This document shows, piece after piece, positions 43,605-56,628 of a DNA stretch of 64,000 nucleotides; position 1 is the first letter of the stretch; the number at the start of each line of letters is the position of its first letter. The position numbers and the translations under genes are program-made. Below the pieces are notes generated by a model. That model was not told the origin of the DNA. It made no database searches and saw nothing but the letters and a program-made list of their open reading frames with translations. The DNA is from a virus, in the IMG/VR virus record IMGVR_UViG_3300022752_005671, positions 62,001 to 126,000 of that record, one strand, 5' to 3'.

Positions 43605-45476
43605 ATGAAGACTTTTACAATCGATCAATTAGCGCAAGGCATCCGTGAGAAGCACGTTGGAGCCGAGCGTGCACGTTTAACAGAAAAGTGGAGCCGCACA
43701 GGTCTCCTCCGCGGTCTCGATGGACAACGCCGTGAAATGATGGCACAACTCCTCGAGAACCAAGCTGCTCAAGTCCTCAAGGAGAGCTCATCTCTCTCAA
43801 CAGGCGGAGCTAACGTTACAGGATCTGGCCAAATTCAAGGTTTCAGCAACATTGCATTTCCAATCGTTCGTCGCGTGTTCGGTGGCCTCGTTGCCAACGA
43901 GCTCGTGTCAATCCAACCAATGAGCCTCCCCTCAGGACTCATCTTCTATTTGGATTACACATACGGCACAAACGTTGGTCAACCCGGCGTTGCTGGTTCA
44001 ACATACACCAAGGGACAATCCATTTATAACAACCCCACCGGCCGCGGAGTCCAATCTGGATCTCTTGCAACTGGTGGTATGTATGATCTTGTTGGTTCTG
44101 GTTACTCAAAAGTCACTGGTTCAGCAACTCTTACATTCGATGGAACAATCGTAACAGGTTCTTTCGGTGGAGTAAACGGTGATACATTCTCATCAGGACT
44201 CGTCCTCACAGTAGGAACACAGTTCAGCGGCAGCAACGCTCGCCTCATGGACTTCGATTCTCAAGTTGAGACAGCACTCACAAATAATGACCTCGACACA
44301 ATGTTCGCATTCGTTCCCACATCACAACTCTCTGGTGCAGACCTCCTCGCAGTCGACCAAGTGGCCCTTTTCCAAGGACCAGGCGGCGCAACTGCATGGG
44401 GCGAGACATACCAAGGTGGAACAGGAGTCCTCAACCTTCGCCGCCTTAACAAGCGTGGAGATTGGAACGGTTCAACTTCAACATTCACACCAAACCCACT
44501 CGGCGGATCTCATATCCTCATGGTGATTAAGTGTGCAAACGCTGGTGCATTTAGCACATCTACAGCTGGCAAGGTCTCCTTCGTCAAGTCAGACTCAGTT
44601 TCAGCTCTCGGCGCTGATGCTGCTGGAACAGGTGCAACACTCACAGTTCCATCATTCGAATCTGATTTCGGAACAACACCATCTCCAGCAATCCCAGAGA
44701 TTGATATCAAGATTGAGTCTCTTGCAATCACTGCAACAACCCGCAAGCTACGCGCTCGCTGGTCACCAGAACTTGCACAAGACCTCAATGCATATCACTC
44801 AATGGATGCAGAGGTTGAGCTCACTTCAATCCTCTCTGAGCAAATCGCTCTCGAGATTGATCGTGAAATTCTCAACGACCTCGTTACACAAGCCAACGGC
44901 GCTAACTACTACTGGTCACGCGCTCCAGGCAAGTTCGTCAACAAGACAACAGGCGCTGCAGTAACCCTTGCCTCATCCCTCTCAATCGGACCAGCCTTCA
45001 CCGGTACAGTTCGTGAGTGGTACGAGACACTTGTCGAGACAATCATCGACGTTGCAAACACCATCCACCGCAAGACACTCCGCGGAAGCGCAAACTTCCT
45101 CGTCTGCGGACCAGAAGTTGCAACAGTCCTTGAATCCTCAGTTCTCTACAAGCCCAAGTTCTCCATCGACGGTGAGGGACAAGTTGCTTCTCCATTCACA
45201 ATCGGTGCAGAGGCAATCGGCTCACTCAGCAACCGCTTCACAGTTTACAAGGATCCTTACTTCGTTCGTAACAAGATCCTCGTCGGCTACAAGGGTGGTT
45301 CCTACCTCGAGACCGGCTACGTCTACGCACCATACGTTCCACTCATTGTGACACCAACAATCTTCGCACCAGAGGATTTCACACCACGTAAGGGCGTGAT
45401 GACTCGCTACGGTAAGAAGATGGTTCGTTCCGACTTCTTCGGGACGGTCACATGCTTGGACATGAACATCATCTGA
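43605..45476 (+). CDS. Major capsid protein, T4 gp23-like
   Basis: A 623-residue protein. The C-terminal half has the gp23 pattern: KLRARWSPELAQDLNAYHSM, then EVELTSILSEQIALEIDREI, and later ANFLVCGPEVATVLES and TCLDMNII at the end. The N-terminal half includes FPIVRRVFGGLVANELVSIQ and SLPSGLIFYLDYTYGT. Capsid proteins of this family are cleaved after an N-terminal propeptide. The gene is GC-richer than its neighbours, with CTC, CGC, GAG and AAG codons, which suggests selection for high expression. AGGAGA lies before the ATG, and a strong terminator follows. Confidence 0.96.
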   Translation: MKTFTIDQLAQGIREKHVGAERARLTEKWSRTGLLRGLDGQRREMMAQLLENQAAQVLKESSSLSTGGANVTGSGQIQGFSNIAFPIVRRVFGGLVANELVSIQPMSLPSGLIFYLDYTYGTNVGQPGVAGSTYTKGQSIYNNPTGRGVQSGSLATGGMYDLVGSGYSKVTGSATLTFDGTIVTGSFGGVNGDTFSSGLVLTVGTQFSGSNARLMDFDSQVETALTNNDLDTMFAFVPTSQLSGADLLAVDQVALFQGPGGATAWGETYQGGTGVLNLRRLNKRGDWNGSTSTFTPNPLGGSHILMVIKCANAGAFSTSTAGKVSFVKSDSVSALGADAAGTGATLTVPSFESDFGTTPSPAIPEIDIKIESLAITATTRKLRARWSPELAQDLNAYHSMDAEVELTSILSEQIALEIDREILNDLVTQANGANYYWSRAPGKFVNKTTGAAVTLASSLSIGPAFTGTVREWYETLVETIIDVANTIHRKTLRGSANFLVCGPEVATVLESSVLYKPKFSIDGEGQVASPFTIGAEAIGSLSNRFTVYKDPYFVRNKILVGYKGGSYLETGYVYAPYVPLIVTPTIFAPEDFTPRKGVMTRYGKKMVRSDFFGTVTCLDMNII

Positions 45477-45503
45477 TAGTCGGAAGCGACCATCTTTGAT
45501 ATG

Positions 45504-46187: not shown

Positions 46188-46230
46188 TGTATATGATTTT
46201 TACATGATCATACACTAATTTAGCAACAAG

Positions 46231-46255
46231 GGACGATCATCTGATCGTCCTTTTT
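46231..46255 (+). terminator. Rho-independent terminator after 45753-46187
   Basis: GGACGATCA at 46231-46239 pairs perfectly with TGATCGTCC at 46242-46250, followed by five T residues. The real loop is likely four bases. It separates the head genes from the HNH and exported-protein genes. Confidence 0.9.
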
Positions 46256-46308: not shown

Positions 46309-46632
46309 ATGAACCGGCGCCGCGCAGGACAACCAAAATTAATTAAAAAACATTGTGAAATTTGTTATTTTGATAAACCTGAAGCAATAAATTTTCATCA
46401 TATCATTCCTAAACGTGACCCACGATGTACAAATGATAATCATAACATAGCGATCGTTTGCCATTCATGTCATGACTTAATTCATGCAGGAAAAATCATA
46501 ATAATAGGCGTGTATTCGTCAACAGGAGGTAGGAAGCTAATGTGGTTCCGCCAAGGAGAAGATCCACCGTTAGAGGAAGAATTCTGGATGGTCAAAGAAA
46601 ATCCTTTGGTAATATTGAGGGGGAAACATTAA
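46309..46632 (+). CDS. HNH endonuclease-like small protein
   Basis: A 107-residue protein. Two zinc-binding pairs, CEICYF (16, 19) and CHSCHD (51, 54), flank an FHHIIPKRDPRC segment with His30 and His31, followed by NHNIAIVC. This is the typical HNH (H-N-H with Cys pairs) layout. Such proteins cut DNA and are often free-standing mobile genes in phages or help in packaging. It sits between the head gene cluster and the exported-protein module. Target and role are unknown. Confidence 0.78.
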   Translation: MNRRRAGQPKLIKKHCEICYFDKPEAINFHHIIPKRDPRCTNDNHNIAIVCHSCHDLIHAGKIIIIGVYSSTGGRKLMWFRQGEDPPLEEEFWMVKENPLVILRGKH

Positions 46633-46673
46633 TCTTTTTTTATAAATTTTTTAATGGGAAATATAATTGTTTT

Positions 46674-48143
46674 ATGACCATTAAAAAAGATCTATTTAAA
46701 AAAGGAATCATCACTGCTTCTGCGTTGATTGCTTGTTTGTATGGATGTGAACGTCCGAATCCGTATAAGTTATCGGGTGATACATCTGCAGTTTTTGAAG
46801 ATTGTCCAACTCCGAAATTTCCTGATGAAAACGTTTCTTCGCAAGTTTCATCCACCTCAACCAGCGGAGAGATGACGACAGGAAAGACAGTTGGACCATC
46901 AGTTACAGCAACAGTTGGGACAGGATATCAAGATGAGCAACAACAAGAGCAGACAGAATTAGATAAGAGAGAGTTTGATTATTCTGAAGCATTGAGAACA
47001 GCTAGCATCTTAATTGTTGGAGATGCTCCTACATTGTCTGAGATATATGAACTCGGCGATTTGCCTCTTGAGCAGCAAAAAGCAAAATATGAAGAGTTGG
47101 TTGACAAAAAGCTATCTGATTCTCGATTTGCAGATACACTTATAGAATTCTTTAAGTATACTTTTAAGATGGGCGGAGCAGCTACAATTTCAGGTGAACC
47201 TACTAGAGATACAGCTCCAACGTTTGCAGCTAGGATTGTTTATGAAGAGAAAGATTGGAGAAACATTCTTACTCAAGTTTCTAATACGTGTCCGACATAT
47301 AATGCCACGACAAAGATTTTTACCGATGGAAATTGCATGAATTTACCAGCAGGGATGAATCATTCTGGAATTTTGACAGATCCAGGCGCACAAAGTCTTT
47401 ATTACGGTAATTTGTCATTTCGTCGTAATCGATTTTATCATGAAACTTTTTTATGCAGATCAGGAAATGAGCAATCAGGTGGAGAGCCGACTGACAATCC
47501 ACCGACAGATGCTCCTTGTTCTGGAGGAACATCCATCCCAGGATATCAAAATAAATGGCCTGTTAATGAGATTGCAGGTGTGTGTAATGGTGGCCGCGTA
47601 GATTTTCATGCGTATAATAATTCAAATGTTTGTGCAAATTGTCATGCAACATGGAATCATAGAGCACCATTGTTTAGTCAGTTCGATTCCAAGGGAGTAT
47701 TTCAATCTTTAACACCTGCAGGAGAATATTCGGTATTCGTTCCTGTTGAAGGTTCTCCTAGAGCAAAGTTATCTGATTGGTTATGCATTGGATCTTCATG
47801 CCCTAATGGAGGAAATAATACAACTGCTTGGAAGAAGTCCATGAAAGTTAATGGAGTAGATACATCTGCAAATGCTAACACGATTAATGAGTTAGGACAA
47901 GTTATGTCTCAAGATGATGAAGTCGTAGAATGTGCGGTGAAAAGAATGTGGAACTATGCAATGGGCCGTGCAGATATAACTGAAATAGGAGGACGTTCTT
48001 GGGTCAATTTGCCTGACAGAAATGATCCAAACCCAGAATTAGTTACCATGTCAAAATTGGTCTTGCAATTTAAGAATAACGGATATAATCTAAAGAAAGT
48101 TTTTAGATCCATTCTTGTATCAGAGGATTTTACGAGGTTTTAA
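46674..48143 (+). CDS. Exported lipoprotein resembling DUF1592/DUF1588/DUF1585 cytochrome-like family
   Basis: A 489-residue protein. The N-terminus has a lipoprotein signal: basic start, hydrophobic GIITASALIACLYGC with a lipobox and Cys25. A Ser/Thr/Gly-rich linker follows. The body has SRFADTLIEFFKYTFKMG, then NVCANCHATWNHRAPLFSQF with a CxxCH heme-type motif, then VKRMWNYAMGRAD, and finally LKKVFRSILVSEDFTRF. This order matches the DUF1592, DUF1588 and DUF1585 modules that I associate with Planctomycetota and Myxococcota. ATG 46674 is chosen because it gives the signal peptide; the frame is open back to 46542 inside the HNH gene. A cellular-type exported protein in a phage is unusual. Confidence 0.7.
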   Translation: MTIKKDLFKKGIITASALIACLYGCERPNPYKLSGDTSAVFEDCPTPKFPDENVSSQVSSTSTSGEMTTGKTVGPSVTATVGTGYQDEQQQEQTELDKREFDYSEALRTASILIVGDAPTLSEIYELGDLPLEQQKAKYEELVDKKLSDSRFADTLIEFFKYTFKMGGAATISGEPTRDTAPTFAARIVYEEKDWRNILTQVSNTCPTYNATTKIFTDGNCMNLPAGMNHSGILTDPGAQSLYYGNLSFRRNRFYHETFLCRSGNEQSGGEPTDNPPTDAPCSGGTSIPGYQNKWPVNEIAGVCNGGRVDFHAYNNSNVCANCHATWNHRAPLFSQFDSKGVFQSLTPAGEYSVFVPVEGSPRAKLSDWLCIGSSCPNGGNNTTAWKKSMKVNGVDTSANANTINELGQVMSQDDEVVECAVKRMWNYAMGRADITEIGGRSWVNLPDRNDPNPELVTMSKLVLQFKNNGYNLKKVFRSILVSEDFTRF

Positions 48144-48144
48144 T

Positions 48145-49152
48145 ATGAAGATTATAAAAAATGGATTATTGTTTAGCGTTGTCCTAGTCGGATCTTTTGC
48201 ATGTGGGTCTAATTCTCCTAACATAGGAGAAGATGAATGTCCAGATCAAAATGAAGTTATTTCATCAACGATAGCAGTACAAGCTTCAACAACTGTCGTA
48301 ACAGCCGGAGCTGGAGGGTCTGTAAATGTTTCTGCGTCATCTTCTGTCACTTCGACTTCGACCGGAGGAGAACCTCAACAAAAATTTGACGTTCCTTCTT
48401 CAGATGAAATTATGTCTCGTTTACATAGCTGTCATAAGCTGTCATATCAACAATTAGGAAATTTTTTAAGAAATAGAGGTGCCTTAATTCCTCCTGGAAA
48501 TGTTTCAGATGTCCGTACAACACAGGTTTCAATTCTTGGTGTAACACAAACATTGGGGTCTATATTTGGTGGCAGCGGAACTTCTTGCGAAATGGCAATA
48601 ACAACAGCCAATGGAACGAATGATCCAGTTTGTCCTGCAGGAGAGGTTTGTTTTTGCAATCAAGACGATAAGATGAATCAAGTAAATCGTAGTTGTTTAG
48701 ATGTTGGAAATAACTCCCCCGACGCAGCTGATGGTTATTGCGTATCAAAGCCTGCAACGGCTGGATATCTTTATTTTTCTGGAAAAGACGCGTTAGGAGT
48801 TCCAAAACTTGATTCTAGATTAGGAGAGAAGGAAGAACACTCAACTGCTTCTGCAATGAAATTAATGGACATCTTCATACAAGCTGCTCCTCAAATTATT
48901 GCAAACATAGGTGATCAAACAAAAGCTCCTGCGTGTACTCTAAACGGAAAAAATAAACAAATGTTTGCAGCAGATGGTAGTTGTGTGGAGGAATCTGTCA
49001 GTTGCTTAATTGGAACGCCTGCTACTGAAGATCACATGCTATTATGTAACTTATTGGTTAGTAAGGCAGATAAAAGTAATTTATCTGATGTTATGAAGAA
49101 GCGAAATATTGCCGTAGCTGTTTTGTTATCTGCAGCGCATTCATGTCAATGA
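48145..49152 (+). CDS. Exported lipoprotein, Cys-rich, partner of the 46674 and 49165 products
   Basis: A 335-residue protein. The start MKIIKNGLLFSVVLVGSFAC is a lipoprotein signal peptide with the lipobox ending at Cys20, followed by a Ser/Thr-rich linker like that of the preceding gene. The body contains a RLHSCHKLSYQQLGNFLRNR segment, several Cys residues and SRLGEKEEHSTASAMKLMDI. No CxxCH is present. I cannot name a family with certainty. The ATG begins just after the previous stop, with ACGAGG upstream, so it is coupled to it. It probably sits in the host outer membrane or periplasm. Confidence 0.65.
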   Translation: MKIIKNGLLFSVVLVGSFACGSNSPNIGEDECPDQNEVISSTIAVQASTTVVTAGAGGSVNVSASSSVTSTSTGGEPQQKFDVPSSDEIMSRLHSCHKLSYQQLGNFLRNRGALIPPGNVSDVRTTQVSILGVTQTLGSIFGGSGTSCEMAITTANGTNDPVCPAGEVCFCNQDDKMNQVNRSCLDVGNNSPDAADGYCVSKPATAGYLYFSGKDALGVPKLDSRLGEKEEHSTASAMKLMDIFIQAAPQIIANIGDQTKAPACTLNGKNKQMFAADGSCVEESVSCLIGTPATEDHMLLCNLLVSKADKSNLSDVMKKRNIAVAVLLSAAHSCQ

Positions 49153-49164
49153 AGGGAAAAGAAA

Positions 49165-50766
49165 ATGGGAAATTGGAAATTAAAGCAACTTAGAGATGAA
49201 CGTCGTAGAACATTTTTAAAGATGTGTACCGTTGCGGCAGCTGCAATAGGTATTGAAAGATCTAGACTTTTAAACTTCCTTGCTGATGAAGGAGGTTATG
49301 GATTGGCAGAAGCAGCTGGTTCAACATATGGGCGATCATTGCTTGTTCCATCTCCAAATGGCGTGTATGCTTGGTTTCAAGAACTTTGGCCAGTTGCAGA
49401 CGTCGGATTGAAAGCATGCCAAAATGCAAATGTTCCCGGATTGTCTTCAAATTTTGGAGGAACGTCTTCATACCTCTACACTTCCCAATATGGATATAAC
49501 CCAGCTAACGGATATCGAGGAACCTATGCTTGGGGTAAAGGTAATCCAATGCCTACATTACCGATGGGGGTAAAAGGATGGAACGGCGGAGATAGATCTT
49601 TCTTTTATAGTCCTCATGCTCCATGGTTTGATCACAACGCTGGAACTCCAAAATATCCTGTGACTGCGTTTATGTCAGGTAAGGATGAAACCCACACAGA
49701 ATTTCCAATTTCTCATATGTCTTTGTCTGGAAATTCATCATTACAAGCAGCGTTAGCTTCTCTTGGTGCAGCTGGGTCATCTGCGATAGTACCTGTTCTT
49801 GGTATAGATCCAGTCAAATATGGTAGAGCTCCTGGTGCCCCAGAAGTTGCCACGGTCCCATCTTCTGCAGGAATGATTGATCTATTTAATTCTGCAGCAA
49901 GCCAATTCGCTTTGGCAACTAAAGTTGACCAAGAGTTGTTTGAAACTTACTATAAGGCATTAGTTGGTCTTAGAAAGTCTTCAGAGAGATCATCATGGGC
50001 TCCGCAAATGTCAATCACGAAGAATGCTGCTAGAATCATTGGTCTTAATTTCGCATCGCAACTTACTCCTACGAGTCAAGATCTTACAGATTTCGGTATC
50101 CAAGACATGATTGATAGCATTAATGCATCATCTACGTATATGACTTCAACTCAAAGAAATGGTATTGAAGAATTTGGTAGAACACTAATCGTTGTGGCAA
50201 AGGCATTCTCATTAGGTCTATCCAAAACTGCCATCGTAGCCTTATCCCCAGGTCCAACCTCCGATACGACCTTCACAGACCCCCACGTTACATTTGATAA
50301 TATGACCTTAATGAACCAGGGTCGAAATACCACAAAACATTTAGGGAAGGTTCTGGATGGCTTCTACAACTATCTATCTCAACAGGTAGATCCTGAAAGT
50401 CCAACTGAAAAGCTGGATAAGAGTACTGTGTTCGTTGCATATGGCGATACGCCGCACACCCCGCTTGTCGGAAATACCTGGCCTGATGCAACTCCTGATG
50501 CTTGTAATTGGATGTACGTCATGGACCCAAGAGGGCACATCAAGAACGGATGGTTCGGTCACGTGTATGCCAATAAAGTTGGAGGTAAAAATGCAGTTGG
50601 ATTTAATCCTCTAACCGGTGTTGATGACATGACGAAAACTTCTGAACAAGTTTCTTCTTTTGGATCGACAGCGACAGTGTTTGCAGTTGCAAATGGAGAT
50701 TCAAATAAGACTTCAGAATATGGAAATTCTCCAAACGTAGTTTCTGCTTTGATTAATCAAAAGTAA
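49165..50766 (+). CDS. Tat-exported DUF1501-like protein
   Basis: A 533-residue protein. The N-terminus holds a twin-arginine signal, DERRRTFLKMCTVAAAAIG. The body has features of DUF1501, a family in the alkaline-phosphatase/sulfatase fold group: PSPNGVYAWFQ, later STVFVAYGDTPHTPLVGNTW and RGHIKNGWFGHVY near the end. DUF1501 genes often lie beside DUF1592/1588/1585 genes in Planctomycetota and Myxococcota, and the arrangement here repeats that. It is separated from the previous gene by 12 bases, with AAGGGAAAAG upstream. The function of the family is unknown. Three exported proteins together suggest a set modifying the host surface. Confidence 0.65.
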   Translation: MGNWKLKQLRDERRRTFLKMCTVAAAAIGIERSRLLNFLADEGGYGLAEAAGSTYGRSLLVPSPNGVYAWFQELWPVADVGLKACQNANVPGLSSNFGGTSSYLYTSQYGYNPANGYRGTYAWGKGNPMPTLPMGVKGWNGGDRSFFYSPHAPWFDHNAGTPKYPVTAFMSGKDETHTEFPISHMSLSGNSSLQAALASLGAAGSSAIVPVLGIDPVKYGRAPGAPEVATVPSSAGMIDLFNSAASQFALATKVDQELFETYYKALVGLRKSSERSSWAPQMSITKNAARIIGLNFASQLTPTSQDLTDFGIQDMIDSINASSTYMTSTQRNGIEEFGRTLIVVAKAFSLGLSKTAIVALSPGPTSDTTFTDPHVTFDNMTLMNQGRNTTKHLGKVLDGFYNYLSQQVDPESPTEKLDKSTVFVAYGDTPHTPLVGNTWPDATPDACNWMYVMDPRGHIKNGWFGHVYANKVGGKNAVGFNPLTGVDDMTKTSEQVSSFGSTATVFAVANGDSNKTSEYGNSPNVVSALINQK

Positions 50767-54429: not shown

Positions 54430-56628
54430 TCAGCCGCGCACGATGACGGTGATGACGTCTTCAGCAACGAGTGCAGACACGATCGAAGAATCGAAAGTGA
54501 CTGATGTTGTTGAAATTGAGGTGAGGTCGCGGCTTGGAGCCATGAGAACACCGTTGAGGTAGACGTCAACCAACTTGTGGTTAGCTGAAGCAAGAGGTCC
54601 TTGGCCTACGAAGCTAAGGACGTTTCCTGCAAAGTCAGCTGCACCGTATGTTGACTTGGAGAGGTTTCCACCTTGGTTAGCTGCATCAAGATCGCTGCGA
54701 AGTTCATTGAGTGCGCCAACGATTGTTGTTGCATCGAATGCTGCATCGAATGTGGTGTATTCTGCTGCTGACATGAGACCCATGGAGTTACCATTTGCGG
54801 AGAAGGAGAGGTCATCAGCTGCTGAAATTGACATTTCTGCAACTGAAGAGAGTGATACTCCTGCTGGTGATGCAGAGAGGGAACCACTGAGGCTTCCTTC
54901 CATTCCACCTAACTTGACAGAGCTCATCCATGCTGGAACAAGTGCTGCACCATCGAGATCAGCTGGAGAATCTCCTGCTGGGTTGTGGGCAACTTGTGCG
55001 AAGATGAGTTCACCTGCGCCACCATCTTGTCCAACGATGAGGTCAGATCCAGCACCAGCTCCCTTGCTGAGGACGATACCGGAGTCAGAAGAACCGGCAG
55101 ATCCTGTTGCAAGGTAGATGAATGCATCCTTAACCTTCATGTTTTCAGTTTCAATGTAGGTGAATGCGCCCTTTACGAGGAGGTCGCCGTCAACTTGTGC
55201 ATTGCCTGAAACGCGAAGGCCGCCGTTGATGGAAAGATCAGATCCATCGAAGGTGAGCTTTTGTTCATCCTTCATTGAACCGTCTGAGTCAACGATGTAA
55301 AGACGTGTTGCTGTATCGCCATCAATGCTGATCTTGTTTGCTGTTAAGTCTGCATTGACATCGAGAGCTGCTCCGCTTACAGACACTCCGTTTTGGAATG
55401 TTGCTGCGCCTGCGACATCGAGGGTTGAGTCGAAATCGACAGCACCATCAACGTCGAGTGTTCCTGTTGTTGCAACGTTTCCGGAGCCATCTGCTACCGT
55501 GAATGCACCGTCAACATCAATTCCGCCATCGAGTGATGCGAGACCTGCGACGTCGAGTGTTCCTGTTGTTGCAACGTTTCCAGAGCCGTCTGCTACTGTG
55601 AATGCGCCATCAACATCGATTCCACCGTCAAGTGATGCAAGTCCTGCAACGTCAAGGGTTGATGCGAAGTCAGCTGCTCCATCAACGTCAAGGGTTCCTG
55701 ATGTTGCAACGTTTCCAGAGCCATCTGCTACTGTAAATGCACCGTCGACATCGATTCCGCCGTCAAGCGATGCAAGTCCTGCAACGTCAAGGGTTCCTGA
55801 TGTTGCAACGTTTCCAGAACCATCTGCTACAGTGAATGCACCGTCAACGTCGATTCCGCCGTCAAGTGATGCAAGTCCTGCAACGTCGAGGGTTGATGCG
55901 AAGTCAGCTGCTCCTGCGACAGAAAGAGATCCTGAGATTCCTGCTGCGTGTGCGAGGTAGAGAGAATCTGCATCAACAACTCCTGCAAATGAAGCATCGC
56001 CGAGAACTGCAAGATCTTCAGAAACCGTGAGGTCTCCTGTGATTGCTGCTCCGCCTACGATTGAAGCTCCACCTGCAGAAATTTCGAGACCAGCAGAACC
56101 GCTGATTGCTGAATCGAATGTTGCAATTCCGCCAACATCGAGTGCTCCTGCGATATCTGCAAATCCAGAAACGTCGAGGTTTCCAGTGATGTCAAGTTTA
56201 GATCCATCATAAACAAGGTTTGATGAATCAGCAATTTCACCGGATGCTCCAACGATGTAGAGGTTACCTGGGCTGTTGTCTCCATCAATCTTGATTTCGT
56301 TTGCGGAAACTCCGCCGTTGAAATCAGCAGCTCCTGCAACTTGGAGTGTGCTGTCGAGTGTAGCAGCTCCTGTCACATCAACTGTGCCTTGGAAATCTGC
56401 GTTTGCTCCTGACATATGAACAGCTGCGTAGATGTCTGAGAGGTCTTGTGAACCATCAAGAGCATCGTACCAGTTTGACTTACCAACGATCTTGTTGATT
56501 TGTGAGCGAAGTGCATCAAGGTCACCCTTTAATGTAGACTTGCTTGCAAGGCCAGAGCCTGCTGCAAGTGAATCGTCAAAAGAAAGTGAACCACTGATTT
56601 GTGATTGTTGTATCTTTGAAATAGCCAT
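54430..56628 (-). CDS. Repetitive tail fibre protein
   Basis: A 732-residue protein, very rich in Ala, Gly, Asp, Ser and Val, made mostly of short beta-strand units such as GTLDVDGAADFAS and ASLDGGIDVDGAF. Residues 246-389 contain four near-identical 33-residue repeats. TTIVGALNELRSDL near residue 640 is a short motif I associate with fibre C-terminal regions. The C-terminal VYLNGVLM and FDSSIVSALVAEDVITVIV form a small beta domain. AGGTGG precedes the ATG. Codon use is GC-richer than in most genes here. It runs opposite to nearly all virion genes. Fibre or receptor-binding role is inferred. Confidence 0.75.
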   Translation of the reverse strand: MAISKIQQSQISGSLSFDDSLAAGSGLASKSTLKGDLDALRSQINKIVGKSNWYDALDGSQDLSDIYAAVHMSGANADFQGTVDVTGAATLDSTLQVAGAADFNGGVSANEIKIDGDNSPGNLYIVGASGEIADSSNLVYDGSKLDITGNLDVSGFADIAGALDVGGIATFDSAISGSAGLEISAGGASIVGGAAITGDLTVSEDLAVLGDASFAGVVDADSLYLAHAAGISGSLSVAGAADFASTLDVAGLASLDGGIDVDGAFTVADGSGNVATSGTLDVAGLASLDGGIDVDGAFTVADGSGNVATSGTLDVDGAADFASTLDVAGLASLDGGIDVDGAFTVADGSGNVATTGTLDVAGLASLDGGIDVDGAFTVADGSGNVATTGTLDVDGAVDFDSTLDVAGAATFQNGVSVSGAALDVNADLTANKISIDGDTATRLYIVDSDGSMKDEQKLTFDGSDLSINGGLRVSGNAQVDGDLLVKGAFTYIETENMKVKDAFIYLATGSAGSSDSGIVLSKGAGAGSDLIVGQDGGAGELIFAQVAHNPAGDSPADLDGAALVPAWMSSVKLGGMEGSLSGSLSASPAGVSLSSVAEMSISAADDLSFSANGNSMGLMSAAEYTTFDAAFDATTIVGALNELRSDLDAANQGGNLSKSTYGAADFAGNVLSFVGQGPLASANHKLVDVYLNGVLMAPSRDLTSISTTSVTFDSSIVSALVAEDVITVIVRG
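55462..55893 (-). repeat. Four near-identical 99-base repeats in the fibre gene
   Basis: The DNA encodes four copies of a 33-residue unit beginning TLDVAGLASLDGGIDVDGAF and ending VADGSGNVAT(S/T)G, at protein residues 246-278, 279-311, 324-356 and 357-389. Copies two and three are separated by a 12-residue spacer. Such tracts can expand or shrink by recombination. Confidence 0.9.

Follow-up and report, generated by a model that had tools for sequence, protein, structure and literature searches.

We analysed a 64,000-nucleotide window (bases 62001-126000 of the 187,069-base IMG/VR virus record IMGVR_UViG_3300022752_005671) that carries three consecutive genes for exported-type proteins, here termed p1, p2 and p3. 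All three are intact open reading frames (ORFs) lying where the initial annotation had placed them: p1 at 46674..48143 (489 aa), p2 at 48145..49152 (335 aa) and p3 at 49165..50766 (533 aa), on the forward strand, as are all features given below in the start..end form. The window flanks consist of T4-like myovirus genes, namely terminase, portal, prohead protease, major head protein, head-tail adaptor, tail sheath and endolysin (PHROGs). The ORFs, their signals and these flanks confirm the annotation's view of three exported-type genes amid phage virion genes. Going beyond it, our comparisons define the module, at the level of sequence, as an operon of Polyangiales (Myxococcota) that was captured at least twice, has a promoter-like element of its own and is optional within its phage clade.

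The p1 product is a predicted lipoprotein, as judged from its ORF, a 16-member alignment and Pfam. It has an N-terminal hydrophobic segment and a predicted lipid-attachment cysteine, C25 (46746..46748), that is invariant across the 16 relatives and, among 23 p1 proteins from phages and cells, occurs in at least 90%. Its one CxxCH haem c motif, CANCH at residues 320-324 (47631..47645), is invariant at C320, C323 and H324 in the same alignment, and the motif is kept in all 23 aligned phage and cellular proteins. The initial annotation had named the DUF1592, DUF1588 and DUF1585 families. PF07624/DUF1585 (PSD2) scored above its Pfam cut-off in the window protein (26.5 versus 25.8 bits), whereas DUF1549 (PSCyt2) and DUF1588 (PSCyt3) were sub-threshold in 16/16 p1 proteins of the window's type (type I), both rising above cut-off in the p1 homologue of a second phage version (type II, described below); no match to DUF1592 was seen in p1. 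With the Pfam matches falling in the right order, p1 is by sequence a PSCyt2/PSCyt3/PSD2 (DUF1549/1588/1585) protein, its predicted haem c motif lying inside the DUF1588 region. No relatives of p1 were found among INPHARED phages or in PHROGs, nor by sequence in PDB, and its AlphaFold2 model, built from a shallow alignment, reached a predicted local distance difference test score (pLDDT) of 49.

A second predicted lipoprotein, rich in cysteine, is encoded by p2; its N-terminal hydrophobic segment is accompanied by a predicted lipid-attachment cysteine, C20 (48202..48204), invariant in an 18-member alignment. The protein matches no family in Pfam, NCBIfam or PHROGs, and the cysteines conserved in its cellular family are also kept by the phage copies.

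Analysis of p3 combined a 19-member alignment, TIGR01409 and hhalign. Predicted export through the twin-arginine translocation (Tat) pathway is indicated by the motif RRRTFLK (49201..49221), whose R14 and R15 show at least 95% conservation among 73 p3 proteins; the protein satisfies the predicted Tat-substrate pattern (RRxFLK plus hydrophobic core), and TIGR01409 (TAT_signal_seq) attains its 16.7-bit cut-off on it. Apart from this signal, p3 matched no Pfam family. The DUF1501 label (PF07394) proposed earlier found no Pfam match in the window p3, its relatives or nine divergent cellular homologues, and it survives in a weaker form: with the Tat region removed, the p3 family profile is colinear with Myxococcota DUF1501 proteins over 328 columns (hhalign, 90% probability, E 1.6e-6), versus E 0.05-0.9 for reversed and shuffled control profiles. 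By this comparison p3 is a very remote DUF1501 relative, the relation holding solely at the profile-profile level. DUF1552, also considered as a relative, was rejected; its profile similarity drops to control level once the Tat region is removed.

Two conserved motifs of p3 align with landmarks of DUF1501, a group placed with the alkaline-phosphatase-like hydrolases. The DPH motif (D372/P373/H374; 50278..50286), which offers candidate metal or active-site residues and is at least 95% conserved in the 73 phage and cellular proteins, aligns with D-x-H, and the GDTPxxP...WPD motif (G427 to D441; 50443..50487), with G427, D428, P433, W439 and D441 conserved to at least the same degree, aligns with the EFGRTP...DHWP region. 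Residues that are at least 95% conserved in the family, including H177, D372, H374, D428 and D441, are kept by the phage copies. As for p1, no relatives were found among INPHARED phages, in PHROGs or, by sequence, in PDB; the AlphaFold2 model from a shallow alignment had a mean pLDDT of 34.

To trace the cellular counterparts of the trio, we scanned genomes and recovered ten loci, from Polyangiaceae and Myxococcota, whose p3 identities are 50-77%. These loci share with the phage module the genes, their order and the conserved residues, and differ from it in being GC-rich (63-71%, the phage copy being AT-rich) and in lacking phage genes in the stretches examined. All 11 cellular loci that were read with sufficient flanking sequence have the p1-p2-p3 order, as do the two type II phage loci, and it is fixed in all phage loci. 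A p3 homologue occurs in 29/145 genomes of the order that holds these loci, Polyangiales; the six closest genomes each carry one or more near copies together with one divergent copy. One cellular locus, L049, has Clp, beta-galactosidase and nuoN/M/L-type genes (names read off translations) on its flanks, and a ClpA-like gene on the opposite strand is conserved upstream of the trio in the freshwater-type cellular loci L049, L052 and L055. Many Polyangiales operons also have a gene preceding p1, p0, for a predicted lipoprotein of about 400 aa with two CxxCH motifs (seen at L273, L274, L275, L276, L277 and L278); it looks like a di-haem cytochrome partner, and it was not found in the phages or in the freshwater cellular loci searched.

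A different version of the trio, type II, lies 3' of the capsid gene on L204, a 200-kb contig whose capsid protein is 80% identical to that of the window, and was found in two further contigs. In the p3 tree (75 rows), the type I copies of the phages group as one clade (98/98) nested among those of freshwater Polyangiaceae, and the type II copies form another (100/100) in a different paralog, beside Polyangiales genomes of 10-13 Mb; type II p3 is 67% identical to its nearest cellular copy. The two types are nested in different cellular paralogs, which implies at least two captures, both located 3' of the same capsid gene. On the evidence of the tree and of the operon order, the trio is a captured cellular operon of Polyangiales, and the Myxococcota origin suggested earlier is borne out. 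The phage hosts are probably myxobacteria-like bacteria of this order. Eight Polyangia genomes were searched for the capsid of a co-binned phage; there was no match, a result that carries little weight.

The module recurs in other viral contigs. An IMG/VR scan with p3 returned 21 loci and a scan with a wider profile 34 viral contigs besides the window, answering the annotation's call to look for the same three genes in other phages; a third capture, sought with two wider profiles, was not found. In every locus of sufficient length to tell, the trio is placed between the capsid gene and neck/tail genes, and several separate contigs run from capsid through trio to neck and sheath genes. The recurrence of this arrangement in many separate IMG/VR contigs rules out an assembly join and contradicts the broken module edge that the annotation had asked to be excluded. 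Pairwise omega (window pairs with finite synonymous divergence, dS) ranged from 0.04 to 0.15, and mean nonsynonymous difference (pN) was 0.109 for p3 versus 0.127 for the capsid protein; by these measures the trio is under purifying selection in phages. Its third-codon-position GC content (GC3) of 0.22-0.30 resembles that of the terminase and sheath genes of the phage, whereas a cellular copy has 0.87-0.88, and the trio has therefore long been resident in phage DNA.

Phylogenetic analysis of the capsid protein placed every carrier inside one 20-row clade (100/99), which also contains four trio-free phages, with 18 outer relatives lacking the trio. A single clade of type I carriers on this tree was rejected (approximately unbiased (AU) test, p 0.002). 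Within the carrier clade, the 297,894-base record L191, whose capsid is closely related and whose genome is larger, contains no p3 anywhere and would be a natural phage for comparison; the other absences among capsid relatives rest on fragments and are hence weaker. The simplest reading of these trees is gain, exchange and loss of the module 3' of the capsid gene. Furthermore, the closest relative of the window capsid gene is L003 and that of the window module is L001, a discordance that suggests recombination between the capsid gene and the module.

The insertion neighbourhood is marked by the major capsid gene (43605..45476; phrog_138, 1.6e-74), which lies outside the module and has a GC content of 0.51 and a GC3 of 0.48, far above neighbouring genes. 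Directly upstream of the module is an HNH endonuclease gene (46309..46632; Pfam PF01844 above cut-off, phrog_144), which may have aided insertion. Relatives without the module also have a similar HNH gene close to their capsid gene; such genes, accompanied by the module or not, were seen in the window, L147, L165, L168 and L191. A terminator-like hairpin (46228..46253) stands between the upstream virion gene and the HNH gene and module, and another lies at 45503. Elsewhere, a structural or fibre-like gene with long internal repeats occupies 54430-56628 on the reverse strand (phrog_697), and a thymidine-kinase-like gene is found near the end of the 187-kb record (L046:1755-2346).

Immediately before p1 we identified a promoter-like element (46639..46667; 10/12 match, perfect TATAAT) whose -10 box ends 6 nt before the p1 ATG, and the p1 start has no clear Shine-Dalgarno sequence. 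Across the phages, a TATAAT-like box occurs 12-17 nt before the ATG in 13/15 distinct upstream regions, with a mean of 5.1/6 matches versus 3.7-4.6 in neighbouring windows, and its spacing to p1 is kept. The total of promoter-like matches in the region does not exceed that of shuffles, and the argument therefore rests on conservation in place. The lack of a clear Shine-Dalgarno sequence and the conserved box suggest a leaderless p1 transcript from the module's own promoter, downstream of the terminator-like hairpin at 46228-46253. For the T4 late promoter TATAAATA, the window showed no enrichment (2 found versus 6.5 expected).

The sequences show host origin, two captures, insertion in the same neighbourhood, purifying selection and the keeping of the cofactor motifs. 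We propose, with roughly even confidence, that a T4-like myovirus clade captured a complete, functional exported operon from its Polyangiales host and keeps it as an accessory surface module, supplying a host surface complex during infection. The phage copies look functional because the haem motif, the cysteines and the family-invariant D/H residues are kept. In the infected cell, host RNA polymerase would transcribe the module from its own promoter, and Sec and Tat would export the three products; p1, with haem c, and p2 would be lipid-anchored in the envelope, and p3, a metallohydrolase-like DUF1501 relative, would be delivered folded through Tat. In a long infection, the three proteins together would re-establish or increase the activity of the surface complex native to the host, as pmoC or psbA do in other phages. 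The genes are host-derived, nested in a cellular clade, phage-carried and under purifying selection, features by which auxiliary metabolic genes are recognised. A broader proposal, which we advance tentatively and hold at less than even confidence, is that the trio represents a class of phage-encoded envelope complex: T4-like phages of Polyangia would swap whole host surface operons in and out beside the capsid gene and thereby reprogramme the infected-cell surface, either sustaining an unrecognised surface redox or hydrolytic activity or excluding competitors.

Several observations weigh against supply of a host activity. The fourth gene of many cellular operons, p0, has no counterpart in the phages; close phage relatives lack the module, which is therefore not essential; and the promoter is a consensus match only. 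The host assignment draws on gene phylogeny, not on spacers from clustered regularly interspaced short palindromic repeats (CRISPR) or on infection. According to published work, nothing is known about what PSCyt proteins do (PMC5615132), and DUF1501 is described there as a domain of unknown function (PMC5122149).

The main rival is superinfection exclusion or receptor remodelling, in which the phage lipoproteins and the Tat enzyme would replace, mask or modify a surface receptor, perhaps the host's own p1-p2-p3 complex. We consider this possible but rather unlikely, and the same doubt attaches to the effect it would have, namely that neither siblings nor rival phages could adsorb and that progeny would avoid sticking to debris. 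The three products are all predicted to lie in the envelope, phage lipoproteins are known to act in this way (T5 Llp on FhuA; PMC9586334), hosts carry several paralogs, and the presence, type and loss of the module vary among close phages as those of competition genes would. However, one small protein is usually enough for exclusion, whereas here there are three, strongly constrained and with haem and candidate active-site motifs intact, and none resembles PADLOC families; a known defence system was rejected for want of any PADLOC match. Supply of the same activity is supported by the retained cofactor motifs, by the strong constraint and by the keeping of the whole trio in both captures. The sequence evidence favours functional supply of a host activity over a mere blocking lipoprotein, without proving it.

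Late remodelling of the envelope or matrix for release, with p3 as an exported hydrolase acting on surface polymers to aid lysis or virion spread and p1 and p2 as its anchors, appears improbable. The module does lie close to the endolysin gene, with capsid genes on one side and neck genes on the other, and p3 is remotely related to DUF1501; however, the module's own promoter-like element gives no tie to late genes, the cellular counterparts are ordinary chromosomal operons outside any lysis context, and no activity is known for these proteins. An assembly artefact or passive cargo, that is, a host fragment joined to or briefly carried by a phage, would fit the cellular homology of the trio, and we give it next to no credence in view of the identical arrangement in the 34 further contigs of one scan, the purifying selection, the phage-like GC3 and the conserved upstream element.

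In the open-access literature searched, no published account of such a phage system was found, in agreement with the initial annotation. The planctomycete-type pairs of PSCyt/PSD genes with DUF1501 or DUF1552 genes, which are cellular and of unknown function (PMC5615132, PMC5122149), share with the module the domain architecture of p1 and a Tat-exported DUF1501-like neighbour; the phage trio, however, is divergent in sequence, has a p3 below Pfam recognition and includes the additional p2. Large freshwater pmoC-phages carry one host-acquired subunit of a host membrane complex (PMC7674155), and with them, and with cyanophage psbA, the module has in common a host-acquired gene for part of a host membrane complex. 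It differs in comprising a whole three-gene exported operon instead of one subunit of a known enzyme, and in having been captured twice, as different paralogs, beside the same gene. T5 Llp is likewise a phage-encoded lipoprotein in the host envelope (PMC9586334), a location that is predicted here, but is a single small protein without a haem motif or Tat partner; its sequence was compared through family searches only.

Gene pairs of the PSCyt/PSD and DUF1501 types have no assigned function, although they abound in some Planctomycetota, Verrucomicrobia and Myxococcota. Phages captured this operon twice, and its activity therefore matters within a single infection cycle, which makes the phage captures a directly testable handle on that activity. 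Our findings widen the range of auxiliary phage genes, so far single metabolic subunits, to an entire multi-gene module of exported surface proteins, and they link uncultured freshwater Polyangiaceae with a widespread clade of T4-like phages. If phages of Polyangia do swap surface operons, this would provide the first functional handle on the PSCyt and DUF1501 families.

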